Positions 25,063-43,366 of a stretch of DNA of 64,000 nt are shown in pieces. The notes below the pieces were generated by a model. That model saw nothing but the letters and a program-made list of their open reading frames with translations. It did no database searches and was not told the DNA's origin. The stretch covers positions 1 to 64,000 of the forward strand of contig JAUIJL010000025.1 of assembly GCA_030431255.1 (NCBI GenBank). Direction: 5' to 3'. The DNA is from Thermoanaerobaculia bacterium (GTDB taxonomy: Bacteria; Acidobacteriota; Thermoanaerobaculia; Multivoradales; J023). The position numbers and the translations under genes were made by a program. Position 1 is the stretch's first letter; every line of letters begins with the position of its first letter.

Positions 25063-25188
25063 ACCTTGGGATCCAAATATTGAGTCTGCAAGAAGCGTCT
25101 CGGGACGAACCGAGCCTCGACCCCGAAGCTTATACGCCTTTGGCGCCGACATGGGATCTTTTTCATACAGATCTGCAAATAAGTACAT

Positions 25189-25465
25189 GTAAAAAGTGCG
25201 CTGCCGGTCGAGGCAGCGCCGGAGCTCACTGGCGGCTCAGCTCGGTTCCCTCCGGCGAATCTCGGTCCAAAAAGTCTCAAATCCGAGAACACACCTCACC
25301 TTCCAAGTCAGAAACTTCCTGACGTTCTCCGAAAGAATCCCAAGAAATCGACCCTGCTTTTTCGCAATTTCTTCCGCAGGAAGTGAAATCTGGGGAGTGC
25401 CCGTACAGAATTCGGACGACGTGACGAAACCGTGACACTTAAATTACATTTAATCTACAAATTTC
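25189..25465. other. Non-coding AT-richer intergenic stretch
   Basis: No convincing gene lies between the M23 peptidase and the ParA gene. This part is noticeably richer in A and T than the surroundings and contains AAGAAAT...ATTTCTT dyad symmetry near 25350-25380. It probably holds the promoter for the minus-strand peptidase. I could not place a convincing -35/-10 pair for it. Confidence 0.4.
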
Positions 25466-25495
25466 CTGACAAAACACTACTTTACCCCTTAGACT
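25466..25495 (+). promoter_or_regulatory. Candidate sigma70-type promoter for the short RNA locus
   Basis: CTGACA (25466-25471) and TAGACT (25490-25495) are separated by 18 bp inside an AT-rich stretch, just upstream of a terminator-bearing 50-nt segment. The -35 differs from consensus by one base; the -10 is weaker. Confidence 0.4.
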
Positions 25496-25501
25496 AGTCG
25501 A

Positions 25502-25553
25502 ACCATCAACACGTGCACCCGAGAGGCGTTCTACGCACCTCGGGCCTTTTTTT
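25502..25553 (+). ncRNA. Candidate ~52-nt small RNA or leader attenuator, copy A
   Basis: Directly after the promoter-like element comes ACCATCAACAC (25502-25512), a 5-nt spacer, a GC-rich hairpin and seven T followed by GCCCT. The same order and spacing occur on the minus strand at 43366-43316. The next plus-strand gene (ParA ATPase, start 25700) begins about 150 nt downstream, so the element is either a free-standing short RNA or a leader that terminates transcription before that gene. No ORF is present within it. Confidence 0.5.
25518..25553 (+). terminator. Rho-independent terminator of the short RNA locus A
   Basis: The stem CCCGAG-(A)-G-GCGT pairs with ACGC-(A)-C-CTCGGG around a 3-nt loop, followed by CC and seven T (25547-25553). 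No plus-strand gene ends here, so the terminator belongs to a short transcript. Confidence 0.75.
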
Positions 25554-25699
25554 GCCCTGAGCTTTCTATCCAGGGTTTTTGCCCCTTACTCTACCGAGTG
25601 AAAGCAGCCGATCGAGCGCTGCCGATGGAGCACGTCATGGTGAGCCTTCGTCGTCGGCCGCTCTTTACCCCCATTCCTTCAGCCGATAATCTGCTGCGT

Positions 25700-26482
25700 A
25701 TGCGTAGGATTGCCATCACCAATCTGAAGGGCGGCGTGGGCAAGACCACGACCGCCGTCAATCTCGCGGCCGGGCTTGCGAGACGGCTCGAGCCCCAGGG
25801 CGAGCGCGTGCTGCTGGTGGATCTCGACCCGCAGGTGGAAGCTTCCGCCTCCTCTTGGCTGGCGGCCCCCCAAGGCAGCCCGATGTTCCTCGAAGCCCTT
25901 TTGGAACGCGGGGACCTCTACGACCTGGTATCCCCCTCACCGGTGCCCGGCTTAGATCTCATCCCCGGCCACCCTTCCCTGGCCCGAGCCGAGATCATGC
26001 TGGCGGGCGAGCCCGGTTCTGAAGCCGCCTTCCAGCGCTGCATTCAGTCGTTGCCGGACCGCTGGCGGGTGGCCATCTTCGATACCCCGCCGGCCCAAGG
26101 TTGGCTCATGCATTCGGCGCTGGCGGCCGCTTCCGACGTCCTGGTGGTGATCGAGTCCGGCGCCATGGCCCTCGGCTCCCTTGTGGGTTTGGATCGGGTC
26201 ATTCGCTTGGTGCGCGAGCGCCTCAACCCCCAGCTCGAGCTATTCGGCGTGTTGCAAAGCCGGGCCGACACCCGCACCCGCCTGTATCGGGAGGTGGCGG
26301 AGCTGCTCGCGGAGCAATTCGGCCCCCAAGCGATGCAAACGGTGATCCGCTCCGATGTCCGCCTGCTCGAAGCTCCTGGACATCGTCAAGACATCTTCAC
26401 CTACGCGCCGAGCTCACGGGCGGCCCAAGATTTCGAGCAGCTGGCGGCGGAGGTCGCCCAGCGATTGGACCTGGGGCGCTGA
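25700..26482 (+). CDS. ParA/MinD-type ATPase
   Basis: A 260-aa deviant-Walker P-loop ATPase. The N-terminus MRRIAITNLKGGVGKTT carries the signature Lys (about 10) and Walker Lys (about 15). VLLVDLDPQ (switch/Walker A'-linked) and VAIFDTPPAQG (Walker B) follow. I chose the ATG at 25700 since the motif begins immediately after it; a GTG at 25598 would add 34 unconserved residues. No ParB, MinE or other partner gene is adjacent, so it is an orphan ParA whose cargo is unknown. The stop is 31 bp before the Nudix gene, suggesting co-transcription. Confidence 0.85.
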   Translation: MRRIAITNLKGGVGKTTTAVNLAAGLARRLEPQGERVLLVDLDPQVEASASSWLAAPQGSPMFLEALLERGDLYDLVSPSPVPGLDLIPGHPSLARAEIMLAGEPGSEAAFQRCIQSLPDRWRVAIFDTPPAQGWLMHSALAAASDVLVVIESGAMALGSLVGLDRVIRLVRERLNPQLELFGVLQSRADTRTRLYREVAELLAEQFGPQAMQTVIRSDVRLLEAPGHRQDIFTYAPSSRAAQDFEQLAAEVAQRLDLGR

Positions 26483-31444: not shown

Positions 31445-34147
31445 ATGATCGGACAGCAGATCGGTAACTATCGCATCGACGGCGAGCACGCGCGAGGTGC
31501 CATGGGCGTCGTGTATCGGGCCACGGATCTGCGCCTGGATCGCCCGGCCATCCTCAAGGTGCCCGTGCCTGAGCTGCTCGCGCATCCCCGCGCGCGGGAC
31601 CGATTCGAGCGCGAGGCCCGCGCGGCCTCGGCACTCGACCACCCCAACATCTGCACGATCTACCAAATCGGTGAGCTGGACCTACCCGATTCAGCAGGAC
31701 AGCTTTTCATCGCCATGGCCTATTACCGTGGCGAAACCCTGGACGCCAAGCTCAAAAGAGGCCCCCTGAGCTCGGCCGAGGTCGCCCATTGGGTCCGGCA
31801 AATCGCCGCCGGTCTGGAGGCCGCCCACCGCCAAGGCATCGTGCACCGAGACATTAAGGCCGCCAACATCATCATTACCGACGAGAATCGGGTAAAGATT
31901 CTCGATTTCGGGCTCGCCAAGCTCACGGATCTGCCGGACCCGGGGCCTCAGGGTCTGGTGGGCACGCCGGCCTATTTGCCGCCGGAAATCCTACGCGGAC
32001 AAGATGCCGATGCGCGCAGCGATCTCTTTTCGCTGGCCGTGCTGTCCTACGAGATGCTCACTGGTCGGGTGCCGTTCGCCGAGCTGGGCGGACCGGCCTT
32101 GCTCAACGCCCTGTTGAACCGCGACCCCGAGCCTCCTTCCGGCTTCATGCACGGCTCGGCGGACCGATCAATCCCTGAAGGCGACTTCAGAGACGGCGCA
32201 GGCAATCTCGACGAGATCGATCGGGTGATCCTCACCGGCTTGGCCAAAGAGCCGGCTGATCGTTGGTCGGATGTCGGCGAGTTTGCGCGCCGTCTCGGTG
32301 ACGCGCTCGGCCATCCCGACCCTACCCAACCGATTTCGATGCCGGAAACTCCGTCGCGGCGAATCCGCGTTGGGGTCTCGGTCGGACTTTTGTTGATTTC
32401 CCTGATGCTCTTCCTATTTGGTTGGCGTGAGATGGGTGCGCCGCCGAATACCCCGATCGTGCGAAACACGGTGCCGCTGACACGGGCCTCCGGATTGGAA
32501 AAGAGCCCGGCTTTCTCCCCCGGCGCGGAGAGCCTGGCCTACGCCTCCGACGAGCTCGGAAACCTGGATATTTGGATCCGACGTTTCGGCTCCAACCGCA
32601 CCGTACCCCTGACCGCCGACCACGAGGGTTACGACGACTCCCCGACCTTCTCCCCCGACGGCCAGTGGATCGCCTTCGTCTCCGATCGCAACGGTGGTGG
32701 CATCTTTCTCATGCCGGCGTTGGGGGGACCACCCCGCAAAGTGTTCTCCCTACCCTTTGTCGCGAGCCAAGAATCCGCGATTTGGGTGCCGACCGTGGCC
32801 TTTTCGCCGGATGGAAAACAGCTTGCGGTCAGCGAGGTCAATAATTTCGCCGGGCCTTGGCTGGTGGACGTCGCCGACGGCCATGCCCGAGAGCTCACCA
32901 AACCCGAATCCGTCGTCGACGTGCCCCTCGTGCAGCCGGTTTTCTCCCCCGATGGCCGCAGCTTGGTGATGGTCGCCATGGAAGGGGTCGGCACCACGGT
33001 ATCGACCCTGTGGCGTCTCGGTTTAGAGACGGAGCAGGCCGAAGCCTTGACCTCCGGCGACACCCTCGATCAGCACCCGGTTTTCAGCCCCGACGGACGC
33101 CGCCTCTACTTCGTGTCCAACCGCGCCGGCATCTTCGATCTTTGGTTCCTGGATTTCGAGAAGAAGCTGGGGGGACCCCCGAAGATCGCCGGGCCCGCAC
33201 GCCCTCTGACCGCCGGAGCTGAGGTGGGTTTCCCGGCCATTTCGCCCAGTGGCCGAGAGCTGGTCTACTCCAAAATCAACGAACGATCGAATATTTGGTC
33301 CGCCCCCTTGTCCGAGCAACCCGTGGGATTCGAAGACGCCACCCAGATGACGTTCGAAAACCACCTGATCGAATTTGTCCACCCGTCCTCCGATGGTCGC
33401 TGGCTGACCTTCGACTCCAATCGCAGCGGCAATGTGGACCTCTGGCTCATGCCGAGCGAAGGAGGATCCCCCCAGCGCTTGACCACCGACCCCGCTCACG
33501 ACTTCTGCCCCCGCTTTTCACCCGACGACCGCGAGATTCTGTTCTATTCCCTGCGCAGCGGAAATCGGGATTTGTGGGTCCTTTCCCGGGACGACGGCAG
33601 CCTGCGGACGCTGGCCCCCCACCCCACTCGAGATTGGATGGGCCAGTGGCTGCCCGACGGACGCTCGGTGGTCTTCGAATCCTCCCGTTCGGGCAATCGA
33701 GATCTGTGGAGGGTTGCGGCGGACGGTCGCAGCGAGCCCGAGCAGCTGACGTTTCACAGCTCCCAAGACATGTATCCCGTGCCGTCCCCCGATGGTCGGC
33801 GGGTGGCTTTTGCCTCCAATCGCGATGGCCGGATGGAGATCTACCTCTTGGATCTGGAATCCGGCCAGACCCGCCGCCTGAGCCGCCGCGGCACCTTCAG
33901 TGTCCTGCTGCCGTTCTCCTGGTCGAAAGACGGCACCGAGATCTACGCCCAAGCGCGAGAAGCCGGCCTGAGGGCTCCGAATCTATGGTCGATCCGGGTC
34001 GACGACGGCAGCAGCCGACCCCGAACCCGCTTCCGCACGACCCGTCGACAACTATTCGAAACCCTGTCGATCCACCAACAACGGGCCTTTTTTCCCGTCC
34101 GCGAGCGCCAGGGGGACCTGTGGCTCGCTGAGCTGCGATTCGAATGA
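31445..34147 (+). CDS. Eukaryote-like Ser/Thr protein kinase with C-terminal TolB/PD40 beta-propeller
   Basis: A 900-aa protein. The kinase domain (residues 8-275) has a degenerate Gly loop (EHARGAMGVVY instead of G-x-G-x-x-G), catalytic Lys38 (AILKV), HRDIKAAN with Asp136, DFG with Asp154, and an LPPEI equivalent of APE. It is probably active. One transmembrane helix (VGVSVGLLLISLMLFLFGW, near residue 310) separates it from an extracytoplasmic propeller of roughly nine PD40-type repeats (FSPDG...IAFVSDRNGG, FSPDGRRLYFVSNRAG and similar). This makes it a transmembrane receptor kinase of the type frequent in Acidobacteria. It diverges from the SpoIIE phosphatase. Its stop is embedded in a 15-bp repeat array that leads into the amidase gene. 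Confidence 0.92.
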   Translation: MIGQQIGNYRIDGEHARGAMGVVYRATDLRLDRPAILKVPVPELLAHPRARDRFEREARAASALDHPNICTIYQIGELDLPDSAGQLFIAMAYYRGETLDAKLKRGPLSSAEVAHWVRQIAAGLEAAHRQGIVHRDIKAANIIITDENRVKILDFGLAKLTDLPDPGPQGLVGTPAYLPPEILRGQDADARSDLFSLAVLSYEMLTGRVPFAELGGPALLNALLNRDPEPPSGFMHGSADRSIPEGDFRDGAGNLDEIDRVILTGLAKEPADRWSDVGEFARRLGDALGHPDPTQPISMPETPSRRIRVGVSVGLLLISLMLFLFGWREMGAPPNTPIVRNTVPLTRASGLEKSPAFSPGAESLAYASDELGNLDIWIRRFGSNRTVPLTADHEGYDDSPTFSPDGQWIAFVSDRNGGGIFLMPALGGPPRKVFSLPFVASQESAIWVPTVAFSPDGKQLAVSEVNNFAGPWLVDVADGHARELTKPESVVDVPLVQPVFSPDGRSLVMVAMEGVGTTVSTLWRLGLETEQAEALTSGDTLDQHPVFSPDGRRLYFVSNRAGIFDLWFLDFEKKLGGPPKIAGPARPLTAGAEVGFPAISPSGRELVYSKINERSNIWSAPLSEQPVGFEDATQMTFENHLIEFVHPSSDGRWLTFDSNRSGNVDLWLMPSEGGSPQRLTTDPAHDFCPRFSPDDREILFYSLRSGNRDLWVLSRDDGSLRTLAPHPTRDWMGQWLPDGRSVVFESSRSGNRDLWRVAADGRSEPEQLTFHSSQDMYPVPSPDGRRVAFASNRDGRMEIYLLDLESGQTRRLSRRGTFSVLLPFSWSKDGTEIYAQAREAGLRAPNLWSIRVDDGSSRPRTRFRTTRRQLFETLSIHQQRAFFPVRERQGDLWLAELRFE

Positions 34148-41797: not shown

Positions 41798-43159
41798 TCA
41801 GGGTGGGGCCGAGCGGAAAAGCCCTTCCAGCTCCTCGAGCGCACGATCATCCTTCTTCAAGATCGCCACTCTGAAAGCTTGCTCCGCCATGGATCGAGCT
41901 TCGTGGGGCGCGGGCTTGAGGGACAGCGCTCGACGAAAATGCTCCGCGGCCCCTTTCCGATCTCCGAGGTGAAGGGCCGCCTCCCCCTGGGTAGCAAATC
42001 GCCAGATATCTTCATCGGCCAGTGCGCAATGCTCCAACACGCGCGTCGCCCATGTTTCGGCTTCTTTCGGCTTCTTTTCGGCCGCCAGCAGCAGGTAGGC
42101 GACGTTGATGCCGTGATAGAAGGCTTGGGCATGATCCTGGGCGCTCTCCGACCTTTTGTAGGCGTCTCGATAGAGCGCCATCGCCTTCTCTAAATCTCCT
42201 CTTCTTCCGGTGACGTGCCAGCGACGCTTCAGCCGGCCGGCGAGCACTCCTTGGGCATCGGTGCCCAGCTTGCCGGACTGCTCCAGTAGCTCGATCGCCT
42301 CTTCCGAGCGCCCCAGATCTTCCAACGCCAAGGCGAGCAATACGAGATGTTGCTCGTCGAGCTCTTCTCGATGGGGCCACAGCCGATCCACGGCCTCCTG
42401 GAATTCCAACATCTCAATCGCCAGCCGAGCCGCGCTCAAGGGTCCCTTTGGCGTCGCCCCGCGGGTCAGCCCTTCCACCAGGATTTTCACGCTGAGGTCG
42501 TCCATGGAAGTCGGTTTCACCATCTGCAAATGATCCCCGTGCACCACGTAGCGCTGGTCCATGGGAAAGGGTCCGAGGGACGATCGCGCGGGCACGAATT
42601 CATCGCGATCACCGGCCACCGCGAAGACCTTTGGACATCCCGAGCCTTCCACCCGGCTAGCCCACTGACGGCGCAAATTGCGAATGAATTTGCCCGTGGC
42701 CGACATATCCCGAAACTGGCGTTTCAACCACCAACCCAAGGTCGCTTTATAGAGACCCTTGCTCGGGGTGCCGAATAGAAAGAGATGGCTGACCCGATGC
42801 TGGAAGCTCGCGTCGTCGAGCAGGGCTCGCTGGGCCACCAACCCCCCCATGCTGTGAGCGACCAAGACGAAAGCTCGGTAGGAGCTGAAGTCGGACGTGG
42901 TCAAGCGCGCACGGAGCAAGGTCGCTAGGGTCGACAGATCGGGATCTCCGGACCAAATACCCGTAAAGTCCGGGGCCAACCGGGTGGGATATCCCAGGGT
43001 GTGCACATCCCAATCCGCCAACCGGTCATCTCGGCAAAGAAACTCGGGGAGCCGTCCAAACGTCTCTTCCACACTACCGGAAAAACCGTGGACCAGCACG
43101 ACAGCGGCCTCCGCGCCGTCGGTTCGAGCTGCGACCCATTCCGGTTCCTTAACCCCCAT
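41798..43159 (-). CDS. Alpha/beta hydrolase (PGAP1-like lipase) fused to TPR helical repeats
   Basis: A 453-aa two-part protein with no signal peptide. Residues 1-230 are an alpha/beta hydrolase: oxyanion strand VVLVHGFSG, nucleophile Ser103 in VAHSMGG, acid about Asp184/186 (AGDRDEF), His about 207/210 (VHGDHLQM). It resembles PGAP1-like and DUF676 lipases. Residues 245-453 are helical repeats (EEAIELLEQ, AMALYRDAYKRS, AFYHGINVAYLLLA, AAEHFRRALSLKP) similar to the TRAFs-binding/DUF4071 TPR region. This architecture is seen in putative bacterial conflict or signalling effectors. ATG 43159 has AGGGGGG upstream. A terminator hairpin (copy B) lies about 160 nt ahead of the start. Confidence 0.8.
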   Translation of the reverse strand: MGVKEPEWVAARTDGAEAAVVLVHGFSGSVEETFGRLPEFLCRDDRLADWDVHTLGYPTRLAPDFTGIWSGDPDLSTLATLLRARLTTSDFSSYRAFVLVAHSMGGLVAQRALLDDASFQHRVSHLFLFGTPSKGLYKATLGWWLKRQFRDMSATGKFIRNLRRQWASRVEGSGCPKVFAVAGDRDEFVPARSSLGPFPMDQRYVVHGDHLQMVKPTSMDDLSVKILVEGLTRGATPKGPLSAARLAIEMLEFQEAVDRLWPHREELDEQHLVLLALALEDLGRSEEAIELLEQSGKLGTDAQGVLAGRLKRRWHVTGRRGDLEKAMALYRDAYKRSESAQDHAQAFYHGINVAYLLLAAEKKPKEAETWATRVLEHCALADEDIWRFATQGEAALHLGDRKGAAEHFRRALSLKPAPHEARSMAEQAFRVAILKKDDRALEELEGLFRSAPP

Positions 43160-43315: not shown

Positions 43316-43350
43316 AAAAAAAAGGACCTCGTCCGCTGAGCGGCGAGGTC
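43316..43350 (-). terminator. Rho-independent terminator on the minus strand, short RNA locus B
   Basis: Read on the minus strand, GACCTCG-CCGC-TCA-GCGG-A-CGAGGTC is a strong hairpin followed by C, eight T and GCCCT. No minus-strand gene precedes it within 300 bp, so it ends a short transcript or a leader of the hydrolase gene at 43159. Confidence 0.75.
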
Positions 43351-43366
43351 ATCGTGTGTTGATGGT
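43316..43366 (-). ncRNA. Candidate ~50-nt small RNA or leader attenuator, copy B
   Basis: On the minus strand the -10-like TATAGA (43377-43372) is followed after 5 nt by ACCATCAACAC (43366-43356), a 5-nt spacer, a terminator hairpin and eight T plus GCCCT. This is the same architecture, block and spacing as copy A at 25490-25553 on the plus strand. The -35 region is not recognisable. In both places the next gene in the same direction starts 150-160 nt beyond the hairpin. Confidence 0.5.

Follow-up and report, generated by a model that had tools for sequence, protein, structure and literature searches.

Small RNAs with a common 5' end, leaders that end in a terminator, and RNA antitoxins provide the closest described systems for the element reported here. 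OmrA and OmrB, in the excerpted account of them, share a 5' end that acts as the base-pairing seed, with the first 21 nt nearly identical and a variable middle (PMC12692685). In the dcw cluster of Rhodobacter sphaeroides, an intrinsic terminator in the 5' UTR yields the small RNA UpsM, which is thought to act in trans (PMC5089854, in excerpt). For the EutX/Rli55 sponge RNA and its ANTAR leaders, as the excerpt describes them, one regulator-binding site occurs both in terminator-bearing leaders and in a free RNA (PMC5821096). Finally, type III toxin-antitoxin loci are outlined as a promoter, a small RNA, a terminator and a protein gene (PMC5086642, in excerpt), and AbiF/RCd22 as a protein accompanied by an antitoxin-like RNA (PMC12373285, likewise in excerpt).

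The present element was found in the window, that is, the whole 64-kb stretch of DNA analysed, where it occurs as two copies, A and B. Their features and the genes that follow them are:

25466..25495, plus strand: sigma-70-like promoter of copy A, CTGACA-18 nt-TAGACT, with the -10 register of the six leader copies described below
25502..25512, plus strand: 5' block of copy A, ACCATCAACAC, putative RNA nt 1-11, mean predicted P(unpaired) 0.96
25518..25553, plus strand: terminator hairpin of copy A, with a 6-bp outer helix, an internal loop and an inner helix, plus T7
25554..25580, plus strand: second, weaker terminator-like hairpin of copy A, GCCCTG...CAGGGT, then a T-run
25700..26482, plus strand: ParA/AAA_31-type ATPase gene, the one that follows copy A, 146 nt beyond its T-run
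41798..43159, minus strand: alpha/beta-hydrolase and TPR-S gene, the one that follows copy B, 156 nt beyond its T-run
43316..43350, minus strand: terminator hairpin of copy B plus T8, seen by folding and missed by a simple scan
43356..43366, minus strand: 5' block of copy B, ACCATCAACAC, with a -10-like TATAGA 1 nt closer than in the other copies and no clear -35

Promoter, block, hairpin and T-run of copy A each lie where the initial annotation had placed them. Direct reading gives the hexamers CTGACA (25466-25471) and TAGACT (25490-25495) with an 18-nt spacer, which agree with the consensus at 9/12 positions (1 match in the promoter scan vs 0.3 expected), and T7 at 25547-25553. Folding of the RNA 25502-25553 yields -17.7 kcal/mol (z = -3.74; 0/200 shuffles equally good), and that of copy B -18.9 kcal/mol (z = -4.62 vs shuffles). 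Both hairpins were missed by the simple terminator scan of the window, which needs an unbroken stem, because each of the two stems has a bulge or an internal loop. The GCCCT that had been regarded as a common tail of the two copies is, in copy A, the 5' arm of the second terminator-like hairpin; it follows the T-run in just two of the nine copies known now and is not a family feature. The exact 11-mer occurs in the window at A and B only, and with up to one mismatch it gives 5 matches vs 0.60 expected.

The initial annotation was right about these two copies, yet its count was too low, since the genome holds nine. The exact 11-mer has 28 sites in the 10.2-Mb assembly, against 4 for its reversed control, and a hairpin adjoining a T-run is found at nine of them: A, B, C7:22585-, C13:14997-, C31:40272+, C37:236328-, C39:51909+ (C39a), C39:90406+ (C39b) and C39:120035- (C39c). 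The search for further copies that had been suggested thus added seven, among 26 sites outside the window, which were examined with 2-kb flanks. The other 19 sites look different: T5 is absent from the searched range in 18, the sole one that has it (C35:40947) shows no adjoining hairpin by eye, and for 18/19 the longest ORF that contains the site has 100 aa or more. A covariance model scores the nine at 37.2-65.1 bits and the next match in the same genome at 19.3 bits; as it was trained on these same nine copies, the gap in bit score is informative and the E-values are not.

Neither relaxed patterns, nor a one-mismatch pattern behind the -10 box, nor the covariance model added a member with a variant block in this genome. 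The one-mismatch pattern of box and block gave 10 matches there (seven exact, the other three mismatched in the box), with no mismatched block behind a perfect TANNNT; in six relatives it gave 4, against 9 for the reversed control. L109 and L110, two loci that combine TCAACAC with a hairpin, were put down to chance, as the letters before TCAACAC mismatch the block. A coding role for the block was likewise rejected: a start codon is absent, and where an ORF does run through it (C31, C37 and C39c), this is the frame of the gene downstream, extended in the upstream direction. The initial impression that the element resembles no known RNA family is supported for all nine copies, none of which is overlapped by an Rfam 15 match. 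The whole window gave nothing at gathering score (the level at which copy B was covered), the region 25200-25800 around copy A nothing up to E 1, and the seven other copies with 2-kb flanks six matches up to E 1 (one tRNA above cut-off), none overlapping the RNA.

The strongest indication of where transcription begins is the promoter register. TANNNT lies exactly at -12 to -7 in 7/9 copies (A and the six leaders) and at 0/19 of the other sites (Fisher p 3e-5). This box precedes the first A of the block by the distance typical of bacterial transcription starts, and the fixed register suggests that the block is the 5' end (nt 1-11) of RNAs of 51-69 nt. C7 lacks a -10 box in register, and a 253-aa ORF on the opposite strand overlaps it. 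A good -35 match (5/6 letters) is found only in A and C13, and most others are poor. Conservation sets in sharply at +1 and is perfect from +1 to +11, followed by A or G at +12, while outside the block it drops on both sides except for the -10 box and a C at -1 (8/9 copies). All 11 block positions are identical in the nine copies, with a mean P(unpaired) of 0.79-1.00; in C13 the block is partly paired if the RNA is folded without its T tail. Hairpins and flanks vary between copies while the block stays the same, and the expectation of a short constant motif next to hairpins that differ in sequence and keep a terminator-like form is thereby borne out across the family. This invariance is not the result of recent copying, since the proteins linked to six of the copies show only 47-79% identity to the first of the six.

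Seven of the nine hairpins have z <= -3.7 vs shuffles; the weak ones are C37 (-1.73) and C7 (-0.97, for a stretch folded 10 nt beyond the T-run). Five (B, C13, C31, C39a and C39b) are picked up by a strict terminator detector that had been written for 0.64 Mb of sampled strand-bases. By their architecture the copies fall into two sub-types. In A, B and C7, which stand alone and are called orphans here, the stem starts at nt 17, and a bulge or internal loop separates its outer helix from the inner one. In the six leaders it starts at nt 15 (C31, C37, C39a and C39b), at 13 (C39c), or, according to which stretch is folded, at 15 or 17 (C13), so that the 5-nt spacer first noted between block and stem is kept in the orphans and not in C31, C37 or the C39 copies. 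The hairpins of B and C7 are alike by eye, and C31, C39a and C39b have a common hairpin sequence. T-runs count 7, 8 and 9 in the orphans vs 5-6 in the leaders (p 0.02, for a difference spotted post hoc), and they begin 1-2 nt after the stem in the former and 2-4 nt in the latter. This split would fit tight terminators in the orphans and leaky ones in the leaders.

The hairpins of C31, C39a and C39b (L020, L026 and L027) hold TGTGTTGA at RNA nt 22-29, complementary to TCAACACA, the 8 nt made of block and next base. Within this sub-branch the pairing could possibly be intramolecular or intermolecular. A riboswitch-like antiterminator formed by a common alternative pairing was rejected for the family, as the other six copies have complements of at most 4 nt.

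Six copies lie directly upstream of genes for proteins of about 200 aa, with the ATG at +69 to +86, that is, 13-27 nt past the T-run; these gene starts were picked by alignment, and the frames of C31, C37, C39a and C39c stay open further upstream. A genome search for the protein family finds six genes at E<=0.001, and 6/6 have the RNA upstream. The proteins are acidic (pI 4.4-4.8) and mostly helical by prediction, with a mean pLDDT of 74.8 (moderate confidence) and nothing at E<=0.001 when the predicted fold is compared with the PDB. Given the little room between T-run and ATG, their expression most likely depends on read-through of the terminator. The initial annotation had left a choice between a short terminated transcript and a leader, and both turn out to occur within one family, with three free-standing copies and six leaders. 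Near the leader modules are found genes for a T4SS coupling-protein-like product (L102, C39a), an RHS-repeat protein (L103, C39b) and a ParA-like protein (L107, C13), hinting at mobile or conflict regions.

The orphans lack the acidic-protein gene, and tblastn with ten query proteins found no remnants of this family or of its TPR partner (see below) in the window, the best match (E 0.005) covering 28 residues at 33298-33378. Copy A lies between an M23 peptidase gene and the ParA-type gene; the latter is a possible, if distant, leader target. In a comparison of the copy A intergenic region with a genome of the same genus, the DNA match covers ParA sequence only (69% identity). C7 is located 156 nt past a lumazine-binding-like gene. 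On the other side of copy A, a terminator-like hairpin with a T-rich tail (25198-25219, minus strand) directly precedes the most upstream ATG (25188) available to the divergent M23 peptidase gene, a leader-like arrangement without the 11-nt block, although the true start of that gene may be the ATG at 25152.

Beyond this genome, the proposed search of relatives came back empty of convincing copies, both in 71 other genomes of the order (one of the same genus included) and in the 395 others of a phylum sample, a result that speaks against the initial interpretation. Both model runs used stricter filters, with which weak members may be lost. The order-wide search gave matches at E<=1 in 61/72 genomes; among those outside the own genome 12 loci were re-scored and 10 alignments read, of which five show another block and five the exact block without T-run and -10 box. 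At E<=1e-5, two of the 396 genomes of the phylum sample have a match, the own one and G223 (E 8.8e-6), which lacks the T-run. As no copies were found in relatives, there is no between-species covariation of the hairpins to draw on.

An 18-base extended block matches in four named genomes, and the viral scan, whose pattern requires the -10 box, returned at least 120 stretches. Among 125 block sites in 124 loci (the viral matches listed plus the named genomes), a crude filter for hairpin and T-run passes six. L182, in one of the four named genomes, has no -10 box and lies inside a 620-codon frame; in the near-identical viral L184, L209 and L293 the block ends an 83-87-codon frame, so the terminator looks like that gene's own; in the viral L266 and L271 the block is inside longer frames. 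The covariance model, run on 84 of the 124 loci, gave 3 matches at E<=1e-4, with a best score of 26.7 bits.

The protein family is similarly restricted. Pattern-limited scans found no relatives in the named species genomes or viral contigs, and at E<=0.01 the family is present in 3/72 order genomes, namely the own one and, as weak C-terminal matches, G004 (E 5e-4) and G003 (E 0.0025), in neither of which the RNA family was found. Next to each of the two distant relatives (L041 and L151, from two genomes of the same family) lies, by eye, a small gene of XRE-like helix-turn-helix type, a possible clue to what the leader-linked protein did ancestrally. No description of such an RNA family was found in the literature, where, among the matches listed, the block letters appear as DNA or RNA only in papers unrelated by title.

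The arrangement of six RNAs before the genes of one protein family and three alone suggests a small RNA control family. In the preferred reading, which is given an even chance, the nine are sibling terminated RNAs with a common 5' recognition block, six of which would double as leaky leaders while the orphans act in trans. The polymerase would start at the A of ACCATCAACAC, as the -10 register implies, and the RNA of 51-69 nt would stop at the intrinsic terminator predicted from its sequence. The first 11 nt, invariant and mostly unpaired, would be the common recognition block, and the hairpin, needed for termination alone, would be free to drift. At six loci the RNA would be the leader of a paralogous acidic protein, made upon read-through of a terminator whose shorter T-run would leave it leakier than those of the orphans. 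The three orphans, which have no linked gene, would act as free RNAs only. Most likely the block would act in trans, either as a 5' seed common to sibling small RNAs or as a site where a single RNA-binding factor docks, and the nine RNAs would then feed one regulatory node, tied by the leaders to six proteins. Between these two roles the base-pairing seed is slightly favoured, since the block is exposed and outside the terminator, as in OmrA/B.

Possible pairing partners of such a seed were sought among the 19 other exact sites. When they are sorted by longest ORF, the sense strand carries the complement at 14 and the block itself at 4, and one is outside ORFs; these sites look like coding background and none is convincing as a target, a judgement made without a codon-usage control. 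Complementarity to 11 neighbouring gene starts reaches at most 5 nt, except for the divergent RNA itself at C39a (with no background control), and the search found no SSU gene in this assembly. A candidate pairing target is located around 2001-2011 of L015. There the block has a perfect complement, 13 nt long in the case of B and C7, close to where an opposite-strand gene for a likely secreted protein begins; judged by eye the site falls in the 5' UTR, though the longest ORF covers it.

The main rival, tentative and on balance unlikely, is a protein-read tag with orphan decoys: an RNA-binding factor would bind ACCAUCAACAC and set the read-through of the leaders, and the orphans would titrate it away. 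A basic TPR protein might be this factor, since a TPR-type gene is found within about 550 nt of 6/6 leaders, in five cases divergent, with a 111-aa fragment among these, and in C37 upstream on the strand of the leader. Three full-length genes and the 111-aa fragment clearly resemble one another (E 1e-17 or better), while similarity to the others is weaker for C37 (E 1e-7) and marginal for C39a (E 0.002-0.003). With pI values of 8.0-10.6 the TPR proteins are basic, the leader-linked ones being acidic, and the C31 TPR protein, used as query, has four matches in the own genome at E<=1e-10 (itself included), all beside leaders. The TPR fold, however, is usually a protein-protein one, the block and the terminator do not overlap, and no alternative pairing is common to all leaders. 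Titration of an antiterminator by an orphan RNA has a published precedent in EutX/Rli55, in the same excerpt (PMC5821096). A more ambitious version, which seems quite unlikely, would have the linear 5' 11-nt tag define a genome-specific regulon, in which a dedicated factor (possibly the module's TPR protein) reads the tag on nascent leaders and so sets the read-through into the six paralogous genes, and the three orphans, each a tag with a tight terminator, titrate it, as a new, non-ANTAR class of antitermination and sponge.

Very unlikely is a block that is read as DNA or during initial transcription, so that +1 to +11 would be an operator, or an element of promoter escape, under a common regulator. 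The fixed distance from the block to the -10 box would make promoter and block one unit, as this explanation wants, but the block is non-palindromic and starts exactly at the putative +1, fixed relative to the box, and an operator would have no use for the hairpin and T-run kept in nine copies.

A module of the type III toxin-antitoxin or AbiF kind, in which the RNA would restrain the downstream protein and the orphans would be leftover RNA parts, appears highly improbable. The gene order of promoter, short RNA, terminator and protein gene is the same, in so far as the excerpts describe it (PMC5086642, PMC12373285), and in the six leader copies a terminator does separate the RNA from the protein gene. 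The RNAs lack tandem repeats, though, which in the ToxIN family measure about 34-36 nt; each RNA of 51-69 nt reads as a single block and one hairpin. Pfam gave nothing above cut-off for the three of six proteins scanned, thus no Abi_2, nor did NCBIfam and PADLOC for two of six; no ToxN/AbiQ-type toxin was seen in the Pfam (3/6) and NCBIfam (2/6) scans, and no abiF RNA motif or other Rfam match lies over the RNAs. Moreover, the protein is strongly acidic, and a single identical block accompanies paralogs that are 47-79% identical to the first.

Least probable of all is the reading in which promoter and leader were passed on with a duplicated gene family and have no function of their own, the orphans being relics, for although 6/9 copies belong to one such family, C31/C39a/C39b have a common hairpin sequence and B resembles C7 by eye, 11/11 block positions are identical in nine copies despite diverged flanks, hairpins and proteins.

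With the nine RNAs taken as siblings with a common 5' recognition block, their comparison with known systems is as follows. Own promoter and intrinsic terminator around an RNA of 50-100 nt, as in sibling small RNAs, are present by sequence, although strict detectors miss several copies, and so is a shared accessible seed (11/11 identical, P(unpaired) 0.79-1.00). Like OmrA/B, as excerpted, these are short RNAs with a common 5' end; unlike them, there are nine copies, with 11 common nt only, six of which are leaders of a protein family. UpsM is described in its excerpt as one 268-nt leader across a bacterial family, whereas here the leader RNA has 52-69 nt and is multicopy, accompanied by orphans and found in one genome. 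The same element occurs both in leaders with terminators and in free RNAs, like the EutX/Rli55 site; ANTAR sites, however, are given there as dual hairpins tied to the terminator, and folding of the nine copies shows one hairpin per RNA, next to a linear 5' block. From type III systems and AbiF/RCd22 the family differs in its RNA without repeats, in the lack of ToxN or Abi_2 in the scanned proteins, in the acidic protein and in the orphan RNAs.

Small-RNA families are usually detected through conservation between species, and one confined to a single genome, as this one is in the searches made, is invisible to that approach; here it was repetition within one genome that revealed an invariant 5' tag beside drifting hairpins. 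One RNA element that is both the leader of an uncharacterised protein family and free-standing also offers a natural set-up in which to see how orphan regulatory RNAs arise from leaders. The family thus appears to be new and apparently restricted to this genome, of a kind broadly known from terminated leader-derived RNAs and sibling small RNAs, and unusual in combining the two.
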